From the NCBI RefSeq assembly GCF_024508275.1, contig NZ_CP101989.1, positions 3,348,001-3,412,000 on the forward strand: a stretch of DNA of 64,000 nt, written 5' to 3'. This DNA is from Cellulomonas wangsupingiae. GTDB taxonomy: Bacteria > Actinomycetota > Actinomycetes > Actinomycetales > Cellulomonadaceae. Positions 3,133 through 64,000 of the stretch are shown here, piece by piece (position 1 is the stretch's first letter; the number at the start of each line of letters is the position of its first letter). The translations under genes were made by a program, and so were the position numbers. A model generated the notes under the pieces. The model was given only the letters and a program-made list of their open reading frames with translations. It was not told where the DNA came from and ran no database searches.

Positions 3133-3263
3133 GAGAGAGCAATCCAGTCGAGGACGGGGCGTGCCGGATTGTTCTGTCACGGGCGGGGGGTGGGGGTGGG
3201 GGTGCGCTGGATTGCGCTGTCACGGGTGGGGGTGGGGTGTGGGGTGTGCTGGATTGTGCTGTC
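3133..3263. repeat. intergenic repeat tract, one forward and three reverse copies of a CTGGATTG-type box
   Basis: One forward box GAGAGAGCAATCCAGTC lies at 3133-3149. Three reverse boxes of the form GCTGGATTGNNCTGTC start at 3163, 3206 and 3248, spaced 43 and 42 bp. The spacers are G-rich (GGGTGGGGG-like). The boxes are degenerate relatives of those in the 62341-62658 array, with the same spacing and the same forward-then-reverse order. The tract sits between the amidohydrolase stop and the purS start, on the upstream side of purS. Its function is unknown; see findings. Confidence 0.85.
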
Positions 3264-60906: not shown

Positions 60907-61283
60907 GACTTCACCACCCTTCGCGGGACAGGAGCACCCCGGTGGCGCTCGGGTGGGGATGGTCGTGGACGTGCCGCGCCGGACCGGGCTGCACCGGGTG
61001 CACGTCCTGCTGCTGCGCCTGCATCGATCTCCACGCCCTCGTGGCCGAAAGTGGCGGCGGACGATCCCGCCGCGGTGATGGCCGCCACGGTAGGCAAACG
61101 TTTGCGGTGCCGTCAACCCGCGTGACCTAACCGAGACCGAGGACGTCGACGAGAAGGGCCGGAAGGGGGCCGACAGATGGCCGGGGTGGGTGCTACCGTC
61201 GACATCGAAACTTGCGAACCCGCCCCGGAGTGCGAGGTCGGCACGCGCCGGCGCGGCGCGACGGGCCCGTCAGAGGAGAACCC
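60907..61283. other. 377-bp divergent intergenic region between permease operon and lacI-type gene
   Basis: Contains the permease leader (60907 to about 61090), the perfect palindrome at 61094-61105, and a TACCGT -10 candidate (61194-61199) facing the lacI-type gene, whose leader is about 80 bases with an AGAGGAG ribosome site. No gene or RNA is recognised. An imperfect dyad (TCGAAACTTGCGA) at 61205-61217 may be autoregulatory. Confidence 0.5.
61094..61105. promoter_or_regulatory. LacI-type operator of the GH39/GH42/LplABC unit
   Basis: GCAAACGTTTGC, a perfect 12-bp palindrome with a central CG, matching the LacI/CcpA-like consensus. It lies 188 bp upstream of the permease start. It is the presumed binding site of the divergent LacI-family protein; half-site GCAAACG also appears in the manD operator. 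Confidence 0.8.
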
Positions 61284-62315
61284 GTGGCCACCTCCGCCGA
61301 CGGCCGCAACGTGACGATCGCCGAGGTCGCCGCCCTCGCCGGCGTCTCGGTCCCCACCGTGTCCAAGGTGCTCAACGGACGCAGCGACGTCGCGGCCGGC
61401 ACCCGAGCGCGCGTCGAGGCGATCCTCGAGGAGCACAGCTACCGACGCCGCCGCGGACGCGGGACGGGCGACCCCAACCTCATCGACCTGGTGTTCCACC
61501 ACATCGACAACGCGTGGGCGCAGGAGGTCATCAAGGGCGTCGAGGACGCCGCCGCCGCCCGGCGCGTCGGCGTGGTGCTCTCCGAGCTCGGCGGCGCGCA
61601 CCGCCCGCAGCAGGAGCTGATCGACGACATCCTCGCCCGGCGCCCTCTCGGCGTCCTGCTCGTGCTGTCCAGCCTCGACGCCACGCAGCGCCACCAGCTG
61701 GAGTCGCGGTCGATCCCGTTCGTCGTCGTCGACACGTTCGGCGAGCCCCCCGCGGGCGTCCCCACGGTCGGCTCGAACAACTGGAACGGCGGCCTCATCG
61801 CGACCCGTCACCTGCTGTCGCTGGGCCATCGTCGCATCGCCGTCATCGCCGGCCCGTCGGACGTCCTGTGCTCCCGCGCCCGCGTCGACGGCTACCGCAG
61901 CGCGCTGGAGGAGGCGGGGATCCACCCGGACCCGTCGCTCGTGCGCTGGGGCAACTTCCACGTCGACGGCGGCTACCAGCACGGCCTGGAGCTGCTGTCC
62001 CGCCCGGACCGCCCGACCGCCATCTTCGCCGGCTCGGACTACCAGAGCCTCGGCGTGATGCGGGCCGTGCGCGAGCTCGGCCTGTCCATCCCCGAGGACG
62101 TCTCGGTGGTCGGCTACGACGACATCCCGCTGGCCCAGTGGCTCGGACCGTCGCTGACGACCGTCCGGCAGCCGCTGCGCGAGATGGCCGGCACCGCGAC
62201 CGAGATGGTGCTCAGCCTGGCCGCCGGCCAGCGTCCGGCGAACCTGCGGATCGACCTCGCGACCGAGCTCGTCGTCCGCGAGTCCACCGCCCCCGCCCCG
62301 GCCGGCACGGCCTGA
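61284..62315 (+). CDS. LacI-family transcriptional regulator of the glycosidase/ABC operon
   Basis: Repressor of 343 residues. The headpiece TIAEVAALAGVSVPTVSKVL (residues 11-30) with N-G-R-S-D-V hinge binds DNA, followed by the sugar-binding core: DLVFHHIDNAWAQEVIKG near 68, SIPFVVVDTF near 140, AVIAGPSDVLCSRARVDGY near 190 and SVVGYDDIPLAQW near 274. The GTG at 61284 has AGAGGAG upstream. It is the only regulator adjacent to the operon it faces, and likely binds 61094-61105. Confidence 0.92.
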   Translation: MATSADGRNVTIAEVAALAGVSVPTVSKVLNGRSDVAAGTRARVEAILEEHSYRRRRGRGTGDPNLIDLVFHHIDNAWAQEVIKGVEDAAAARRVGVVLSELGGAHRPQQELIDDILARRPLGVLLVLSSLDATQRHQLESRSIPFVVVDTFGEPPAGVPTVGSNNWNGGLIATRHLLSLGHRRIAVIAGPSDVLCSRARVDGYRSALEEAGIHPDPSLVRWGNFHVDGGYQHGLELLSRPDRPTAIFAGSDYQSLGVMRAVRELGLSIPEDVSVVGYDDIPLAQWLGPSLTTVRQPLREMAGTATEMVLSLAAGQRPANLRIDLATELVVRESTAPAPAGTA

Positions 62316-62340
62316 CCCCCACCCCCACCCCCGCGGGCGC

Positions 62341-62658
62341 GAGAGGTCAATCCAGTCGTCCCGTCCCACCCCCCGGGTGGGCGTGAGAAGTCAATCCAGT
62401 CGTCCCGCCCAACCCCCCGGGGGTGTGAGAAGTCAATCCAGTCTCGCCCGCCCCACCCCCGTGTACCCGAGAGCTCAATCCAGTCCAGCCCGACCCACCC
62501 CCGTGCGGGCGAGACGAGACTGGATTGACCTCTCACGCCCAAGGGAGGCGCGGGGGACGAGACTGGATTGACCTCTCACGCCCCCCGGGGGTGGGCGGGA
62601 CGACTGGATTGACCTCTCGCGGCCCGGGGGGTGGGCCCGGGGGCTGGATTGACCTCTC
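62341..62658. repeat. mirrored array of eight 17-bp boxes (four forward, four reverse) between convergent genes
   Basis: Forward boxes GAGARNTCAATCCAGTC start at 62341, 62385, 62427 and 62469. Reverse boxes GACTGGATTGACCTCTC start at 62518, 62561, 62602 and 62642 (the last with one change). Spacing is 40-44 bp. The spacers are C-rich or G-rich and mostly self-complementary (CCCACCC...GGGTGGG). The array as a whole is a nested palindrome centred near 62500, between the LacI gene and GH95; the last box contributes the GH95 stop codon. It is related to the tract at 3133-3263. Confidence 0.95.
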
Positions 62659-64000
62659 ACCCCCGGGGGGGCAGGGGGGTGGGGTGGCCCGGGGTGACGG
62701 TGACCTGCTGCCGGCGTGCCCCTCCGGCCTCGCGGACGTCGACGACGACGGCGCGGTCCGACTCCAGGACCGCGTGCACCACGCGTCCGTCCTGCCACCG
62801 CAGGTCCGCCAGGCGCAAGCCGCCGCGCAGCCGCAGGCCCCGGACGCGCCCGTCGGGCCAGGCGGCGGGCAGGGCGGGCAGCAGGTGGACCTCGCGCACA
62901 CCGTCGGCGCCCTGGTGGTGCGCCTGCACGAGGGCCTCGGCGACGCCGGCCGTGAAACCGAGGTTCCCGTCGATCTGGAACGGCGGGTGCGCGCACAGCA
63001 GGGACCGGTAGACGCCGCCGCGCAGGTGCGCCGGCAGGTCCGTGCCGCGCGGGGCGGCACCCTCCGCGTCCACGGGGTGCAGGAACGCGTCGACCAGCGC
63101 CGCGACCCCGTCGGCGTCGCGCAGCCGCGCCCGCAGCGCGAGGCGCCACGCCAGCGACCACCCGGTGGACTCGGGTCCCCGCGCGTCGAGCGTGCGCGCG
63201 GCGGCGGCCGCGAGCGTCGGCGCGGTGTCGGGGTCGATCGACGTCCCGGGGAACACGCGGTACAGGTGCGACTGGTGGCGGTGGGCGGGCTCGGCGTCCG
63301 GGACGTCCGTGTGCCACTCCGCGAGCCGACCGTCGGGGCCGACGCGCTCGGTGGGCAGCCGCTCGAGCGCCCCCTCGACGGCGTCGCGCAGGTCGGCGTC
63401 GTGGTCGCCCACGACGGGGGTGAGGCGCCGCACGTGCTCGAGGAGGTCGCGCACCATCGCGAGGTCGGACGTGGTCGACACCGACACCGACGCGGCGCGC
63501 CCGTCGGGCAGCAGGTACTGGTTCTCGGGGCTCGTCGCCGGGGACGTGCCGAGGGTGCCGTCGGGCAGCTCGACGAGCATGTCGAGCGCCGCCAGCGCGG
63601 CACCGCGCACCACCGGCCAGTGCCGCCGCAGGGCGTCGTCGTCGCCCGTCCAGTCGCGGTGGTCCACGACGTGCCGCGCCAGCCACACGCCGCCGAGCGG
63701 CCAGGAGGACCAGCTCGCGGAGTCGTGCCCCTGGCCCGTCGGGCCCGTGAAGCACCACGGGTCGGAGTTGTGGTGCGCCACCCAGCCGCGCACGCCGTAG
63801 AACGTCCGGGCGGTGCCCTGCCCCGCGACGGCGAGCCGGTCCAGCCAGGCCAGGAGCGGCTCGTGGCACTCGGCCAGGTCGCCGACGAGCGTGGGCCAGT
63901 AGTTCATCTCGGTGTTGATGTTGATCGTGTAGTTCGAGCTCCACGGCGGGCGCACCCGCTCGTTCCAGATGCCCTGCAGGTTCAGCGGCAGGGTCCCCGG
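62657..64000 (-). CDS. GH95 alpha-L-fucosidase, C-terminal part (5' end outside window)
   Basis: Inverting alpha-fucosidase family. The visible part, about 448 residues, starts inside the catalytic domain. L-Q-G-I-W-N at the window edge, followed by YTININTEMNYWP and AHHNSDPW, is the GH95 core containing the conserved Asn-x-Asn residues of the active site. HRHQSHLYRVFPG near the middle and FQIDGNLGFTAGVAEAL near the C-terminus are also diagnostic. The C-terminal ~60 residues are a beta-domain ending in a Pro-rich tail whose stop codon lies in a repeat box. The fucose residues of xyloglucan or glycans are the expected substrates; some members act on galactosides. Confidence 0.92.
   Translation of the reverse strand, partial: PGTLPLNLQGIWNERVRPPWSSNYTININTEMNYWPTLVGDLAECHEPLLAWLDRLAVAGQGTARTFYGVRGWVAHHNSDPWCFTGPTGQGHDSASWSSWPLGGVWLARHVVDHRDWTGDDDALRRHWPVVRGAALAALDMLVELPDGTLGTSPATSPENQYLLPDGRAASVSVSTTSDLAMVRDLLEHVRRLTPVVGDHDADLRDAVEGALERLPTERVGPDGRLAEWHTDVPDAEPAHRHQSHLYRVFPGTSIDPDTAPTLAAAAARTLDARGPESTGWSLAWRLALRARLRDADGVAALVDAFLHPVDAEGAAPRGTDLPAHLRGGVYRSLLCAHPPFQIDGNLGFTAGVAEALVQAHHQGADGVREVHLLPALPAAWPDGRVRGLRLRGGLRLADLRWQDGRVVHAVLESDRAVVVDVREAGGARRQQVTVTPGHPTPLPPRG

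Follow-up and report, generated by a model that had tools for sequence, protein, structure and literature searches.

REP and REPIN elements are short repeats dispersed through intergenic DNA, arranged in inverted doublets and clusters, and their companion gene, RAYT, adjoins such repeats (PMC3116915, PMC2817692, PMC3733652). CGTC-tagged REPs "apparently lack a dedicated transposase" (PMC3733652). The AbiEi protein of S. agalactiae and Rv2827c of M. tuberculosis bind inverted repeats (PMC7319586). Here we describe a dispersed box family in Cellulomonas wangsupingiae, met as an array in a 64,000-nucleotide stretch of the genome (the window). The array, located between a lacI-type gene and a GH95 gene that converge on it, consists of four 17-bp boxes (GACTGGATTGnnCTCTC) on the minus strand followed by four on the plus strand. 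On balance, we favor the reading that this block belongs to a dispersed box family, mapped at 46 intergenic sites, whose boxes are likely bound by an AbiEi-like/nuclease companion protein that is predicted to spread them.

The boxes resemble the REP/REPIN-RAYT systems in being high-copy and intergenic (215 of 225 boxes, in 46 regions), in forming inverted doublets and clusters, and in having a companion gene flanked by repeats, though the protein is a different one. The companion joins an AbiEi-like part to a Vsr/homing-type nuclease part, whereas RAYT is a Y1 HUH transposase, and the box has a CGAG or TGAG head, whereas REPs have a GTAG head beside a palindromic stem. The 17-bp box is also not itself palindromic, and tandem spacing favors whole helical turns. 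By membership the system is not REP/RAYT, two defining features being absent, yet it would work like one. It is best read as a REP/RAYT-like pair with an unrelated, homing-endonuclease-like enzyme in place of the Y1 transposase.

With the CGTC-tagged REPs the boxes share a tag, dispersal and the absence of a Y1 companion, but tag and structure are different, and a companion candidate was found here, whereas the part of PMC3733652 consulted reports none. Like the AbiEi antitoxins of type IV toxin-antitoxin systems, the companion has the AbiEi_1 domain and fold; unlike them, it lies beside radical-SAM and FadJ-like genes, is fused to a nuclease-like domain and is accompanied by repeats dispersed genome-wide. 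The nearest comparison of nuclease type is the Vsr-like homing endonuclease I-Bth0305I, and the companion is not known as intron- or intein-borne. In the open-access literature searched, no paper was found to connect dispersed repeats with Cellulomonas, AbiEi proteins or DUF559 proteins, or REPINs with a restriction-like enzyme.

The box family and its companion gene

Matches to the box in the window at ≤3 mismatches numbered 11 versus 0.92 expected, and 0 of 100 shuffles reached 11. The positions of the eight boxes were confirmed as an earlier sequence-only reading had described them, four forward then four reverse between convergent genes. That reading had named a motif unique to the window as an outcome that would count against it; in the C. 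wangsupingiae genome (4.118 Mb, one contig), GACTGGATTGnnCTCTC gave 150 matches at ≤1 mismatch and its reversed control none. Of these matches 100 were listed, and further clusters were sought beyond them. A weight matrix built from 148 copies extended the motif to GACTGGATTGcnCTCTC(A/G)C(G/C); on the opposite strand, the column counts of the 148 boxes read (G/C)G(C/T)GAGAGnnCAATCCAGTC, with no GTAG. The 225 boxes are those found by the matrix in the stretches examined, and some of the 46 intergenic regions hold a single box. The array statistics cover about one tenth of the genome, in 40 loci (37 around matches and three of ~20 kb elsewhere), and a smaller cluster in the window, at 3133, was left out of the 46 sites.

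Across 81 Cellulomonas genomes (numbered with a G prefix below), 13-199 copies at ≤1 mismatch were present in 10, one in G047 and none in 70. Among 67 genomes of other genera, 6 had one match each, versus 2 for the reversed control. A two-box pattern was found in 3 of 396 genomes of the order, all three of them Cellulomonas, in a sample that included just 14 other Cellulomonas. In a wide contig scan, the named records with several motif copies among the matches listed were Cellulomonas, and the non-Cellulomonas records had one exact match each, at chance level (among the matches listed, 80 of at least 119). No box match was found in phage records, plasmid records or IMG/VR contigs. A purL tree placed the 10 box-rich genomes inside a 12-species clade (support 100/99), whose box-poor members, G047 and G079, are sisters (support 100/99). 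The box family is clade-specific, with over 200 copies in the C. wangsupingiae genome.

The companion gene lies outside the window, at genome positions 1929065-1929985, and was chosen for its place between two box clusters at one locus in the terminus half of the chromosome in C. wangsupingiae and G003. Clustering of array neighbors in six genomes was also tried as a way to a common neighbor gene and was rejected, most of the shared ones being ordinary genes at inherited sites. Full-length orthologs of the companion are present in exactly the 10 box-rich genomes of the 81 and are 64-81% identical to the C. wangsupingiae protein; the next-best matches in the genus have 38-40% identity. G079 has a 120-residue fragment of the companion together with one box pair and one weak box. 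G047 has a distant match only, and its radical-SAM and FadJ-like genes stand 59 bp apart with neither a gene nor a box between them. The companion adjoins a radical-SAM and/or FadJ-like (3HCDH/ECH) gene in 10 of 10 genomes, with no gene called between; both neighbors are present in 6 genomes, and one in the other 4, where the contig breaks off at this point. Nine of the 10 genomes have boxes to the left and right of the companion, and the tenth, G072, has weak ones on a single side; the nearest box is minus on the left in 9/9 and plus on the right in 7/9.

The protein consists of an AbiEi-like (AbiEi_1) domain fused to a Vsr-like/homing-type nuclease domain, the AbiEi domain and fold and the Vsr-like fold both having been recovered. 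The orthologs show purifying selection, and their nuclease-like residues are invariant. No AbiEii (DUF1814) toxin gene is adjacent to the companion; unlinked toxins were not searched for. The RAYT domain Y1_Tnp (PF01797) was found in 0 of the 10 box-rich genomes and in one of all 81, the box-free G004.

Conservation, spacing and sites of the boxes

Folded as RNA, the window block gave -262.8 kcal/mol on the plus strand and -291.8 kcal/mol on the minus strand (z = -16.8 and -18.2), as a single long imperfect hairpin, in line with the nested palindrome that the sequence-only reading had noted. Among 74 closely spaced inverted pairs drawn from several species, arm agreement exceeded chance clearly only at position 11, and weakly at 3; at most of the variable positions the arms agreed no more than expected by chance, and 196 tandem neighbor boxes agreed far more than the inverted arms did. 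Because a selected hairpin should covary and the arms mostly do not, the box looks conserved as sequence. No Rfam covariance-model match at gathering score was obtained in five array loci.

The distribution of tandem spacings has its peaks at 31-32 and 42 bp and minor groups around 53 and 62 bp, close to multiples of the 10.5-bp helical turn. When the phase was set by the main peak, the mean cosine over 59 deduplicated spacings of 38-75 bp was 0.44 (p ~1e-6), and for spacings of 47-110 bp (n = 25) p was 0.017. Taken separately at 37-110 bp, C. wangsupingiae gave p = 0.006 and the other species p = 0.001. Same-length spacers at least 75% identical were removed in this test, and related spacers may still inflate the p-values. 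The phasing points to proteins that would be aligned on one face of double-stranded DNA and, with the scant covariation of inverted arms, suggests that the box is recognized in double-stranded form. The arrays are mosaics in which same-orientation neighbors exceed the shuffled level, and minus/plus neighbor boxes concentrate at 26-30 bp apart (22 of 35).

At the window locus, the two flanking genes abut in G047 (0-bp gap) and are separated by 37 bp in G045; the flanks are 82-88% identical, and no boxes are present. The site is empty in both relatives, and the array was therefore gained locally or lost more than once. Of 13 C. wangsupingiae box sites in the region compared, G047 could be matched at 11, two of which have boxes, and G045 at 8, five of which have boxes. 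A 390-kb stretch of G047 contained 7 boxes, mostly weak, versus 59 in G045 (reversed control 1 each). The C. wangsupingiae array at 3560145-3560587 corresponds to a clean gap in G047, where ~370 bp are missing; in G045 the array is present and arranged differently. Some array sites are common to C. wangsupingiae and G003, so the conservation at orthologous sites that the sequence-only reading had looked for was found at some array sites and not at the window site.

Distant paralogs of the companion are present in other Cellulomonas, with 35-40% identity in most of the best matches listed. A profile of the companion found 1056 database proteins at E ≤ 0.001 among 7998 candidates scored; the relatives named by their sources, among 120 matches listed, were type IV AbiEi antitoxins, very-short-patch-repair endonucleases or hypothetical proteins. 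A 13-mer common to both 700-bp flanks was found at 20 of 29 paralog loci (9 returned by a genus search and 20 picked from its list) versus 51 of 302 control loci. The controls divide into 33/149 in G047, 18/153 in G045 and 15/117 in C. wangsupingiae, 302 being the total reported for the first two. Shared flank words with CGAG/CTCG, such as GAGATCGTGGGTTCGGC, CCGAGTTCGGCAC, CGAGAACGACCCTC and GCCGAGGTCGAGCGTTT, were found at 19 of the 20 paralog loci versus 25 of the 302 controls (Fisher p = 3e-12); the box family of the window has CGAG or TGAG at the same end. The word CGAGTTCGCCGGTT has 63 copies in G073 and stands at either side of the paralog there; six other genomes together hold 29 copies, and the remaining 74 have none. 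At 15 of the 17 G073 loci examined, it has the same layout of 68-69 bp (+, +19, -54/55) with variable loops.

Proposed mechanism and its alternatives

In the mechanism that we propose, the AbiEi-like part of the companion would bind tandem boxes and the Vsr-like part would nick or break DNA at or near them. The intergenic boxes could then be copied and multiplied by repair that uses box loci elsewhere as templates, or by slipped re-alignment inside one array. The minus-then-plus layout in the window matches the polarity that boxes show around the companion gene, as if it might be a gene-less form. Four roles had been guessed in the sequence-only reading, and as a group they found partial support. 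The protein-binding platform and the miniature mobile element gained from the preference of the spacings for whole helical turns, from the empty sites in relatives and from the companion gene among boxes. The RNA structure lost ground, as the inverted arms do not covary at most of the variable positions, and the transcription barrier between convergent operons had a mixed outcome that is set out below.

A number of observations weigh against the companion as the agent of spread. The nuclease match of the companion is under the cut-off (25.0 vs 38.2 bits), and its structure model is weak around H246 (pLDDT <50 at 245-247). Boxes lie within 250 bp on both sides of 4 of 312 C. wangsupingiae genes, the companion and three others. 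The loss of gene and boxes in the sisters G047 and G079 can be a single event, the presence profile could reflect just one gain plus one joint loss, and other genes could show the same profile. Helical phasing requires no nuclease; it is weaker if spacings start at 37 bp (p = 5e-5), and spacings of 22-27 bp do not fit it. No target-site duplication was seen by eye at the G047 gap opposite 3560145-3560587, and the proposed mechanism does not account for the bias of box loci towards the origin, described below. As for the paralogs, 9 of the 29 loci have no shared flank repeat, and the control genes came from other genomes than the paralogs. The 19- and 35-bp steps of the CGAGTTCGCCGGTT family are not whole helical turns, and its loops vary freely while its boxes do not, a pattern that would not be expected from simple copying of a unit. 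In Pfam scans of three paralogs, the nuclease was recognized in two, once below the cut-off, and AbiEi_1 was not recognized in any.

Three of the alternatives, a terminator or roadblock, plain operators and a chromosome platform, each also have a box-bound protein. Boxes that benefit the host as a bidirectional terminator or roadblock, where protein on phased boxes would halt RNA polymerase leaving convergent genes, are an unlikely explanation. The 46 box sites comprise 17 convergent, 25 codirectional and 4 divergent regions versus 71, 182 and 74 of all 327 intergenic regions in the stretches examined and the window, and convergent regions are over-represented. The phase of the spacings fits a bound protein. 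Boxes are also found at the purL 3' end in 7 of the 10 box-rich species (weak in G072; none in G053, G029 or G007), where several outgroup species have ordinary GC hairpins, as read by eye. The same 46 sites are codirectional in more cases than they are convergent, however, and box orientation near gene 3' ends in C. wangsupingiae is 30 vs 24; an orientation rule relative to 3' ends, apparent in a few low-copy genomes, was dropped on that count. The empty window site in both relatives, boxes at 2 of the 11 sites matched in G047 and the 70 box-free genomes of 81 also speak against it. Nor would we expect the boxes to be plain autoregulatory operators of the AbiEi-like protein, dispersed by recombination and slippage with the nuclease domain uninvolved. 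AbiEi-family antitoxins are indeed autoregulatory and bind inverted repeats in the promoters of their own genes (PMC7319586), the companion sits among boxes, and copy number at the same site varies (4 in G029, at least 6 in G007). Boxes are found 3' of the companion gene as well, though, and divergent, promoter-bearing regions are the rarest box sites; spread to tens of sites requires a copying process, and the nuclease-like residues are invariant.

A chromosome-organizing platform, in which a nucleoid or segregation protein would use sites kept near the replication origin, is improbable. The C. wangsupingiae contig begins beside dnaA (the protein was identified by reading), which we take to be the origin; in the relatives, the contig start was inferred to be the origin from a similar position of purL. 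The origin-proximal half holds 36 of 41 box loci in C. wangsupingiae, 25 of 32 in G045, 15 of 18 in G003 and 9 of 9 in G072, and the arrays are phased. Hits were taken at a matrix score ≥12 in C. wangsupingiae, as exact matches in G045 and G044 and at ≤1 mismatch in G003 and G072. In G044, by contrast, the bias is not significant (11 of 16), and boxes lacking in 70 of 81 Cellulomonas and almost so in the sisters G047 and G079 would be unusual if their function were essential. The reading as a standard REP/RAYT family or as an RNA hairpin element is largely refuted and retains hardly any weight. Intergenic position, high copy number, inverted doublets and strong folding would suit it; the only genome of 81 with Y1_Tnp (PF01797) is box-free, the GTAG head is absent, and the 74 inverted pairs show little arm covariation, with no Rfam match in the five loci.

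The companion-driven spread that we favor can be extended to a new class of actinobacterial genome parasites or symbionts, solitary AbiEi/Vsr-type nuclease genes, each with its own dispersed CGAG-headed repeat, that would spread these boxes through the chromosome by homing-like breakage and repair. We offer this class tentatively and would not be surprised to see it fail; it was rated lower because of the Pfam result on the three paralogs. If true, it would amount to a counterpart of REP/RAYT driven by a nuclease, with box and protein diverging in step from one species to the next. If such genes in actinobacteria do accompany repeats, a large gene family and a set of intergenic repeats, both so far unexplained, would account for each other. 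Natural box-protein pairs of differing specificity would make the spread of REP-like repeats without a Y1 transposase directly testable.

Window features and further loci

Box array, second cluster and neighboring genes in the window. Positions are counted from the first nucleotide of the window.
Feature	Position	Strand	Evidence
Box 1	62341..62357	-	pattern match
Box 2	62385..62401	-	pattern match, 1 mismatch
Box 3	62427..62443	-	pattern match, 1 mismatch
Box 4	62469..62485	-	pattern match
Box 5	62518..62534	+	pattern match
Box 6	62561..62577	+	pattern match
Box 7	62602..62618	+	pattern match
Box 8	62642..62658	+	pattern match, 1 mismatch; 2-bp overlap with GH95 stop codon
Intergenic array, whole	62316..62656	unstranded	341-bp gap filled by eight boxes
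LacI-type regulator gene, left convergent neighbor	61284..62315	+	Pfam LacI, Peripla_BP_3
GH95 family glycoside hydrolase gene, right convergent neighbor	62657..64000, past window end	-	Pfam Glyco_hydro_95_cat
Second, smaller box cluster	3133..3263	3133 minus; 3205 and 3247 plus	3133 exact; 3205 and 3247 with 3 mismatches each

The start of the LacI-type gene is that called by the script; its longest open reading frame begins at 61212. The stop codon of this gene is 25 bp from box 1. Start-to-start steps in the array are 44, 42 and 42 bp, then 49 bp at the center, then 43, 41 and 40 bp, and the spacers of different units are related to one another.

Elsewhere in the C. wangsupingiae genome, a run of more than 30 C residues lies between two boxes of the array at 3478773-3478859 and is likely a slippage hot spot. 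A GC-shifted variant of the box in G047 (GACCGGGTCGCTC), which the purL hairpin had suggested, was rejected as a family: 390 kb yielded 8 matches at ≤1 mismatch, of which 5 are intergenic. In the purL 3' region of G072, another box-like word, GCCGGAACGACGCCTCGC, occurs three times in tandem and is possibly a diverged box. In G058, CCGAGATCGG-type repeats are found in the intergenic region beside purL, and this genome also has a companion paralog whose flanks carry CGAG-type repeats. Antisense frames are open in the GC-rich DNA at the purL loci. The copy numbers given above for G029 and G007 come from near-identical loci with tandem boxes (L170 3722-3846 and L171 11-211, respectively, the G007 contig starting there), and the difference is probably a recent copy-number change.
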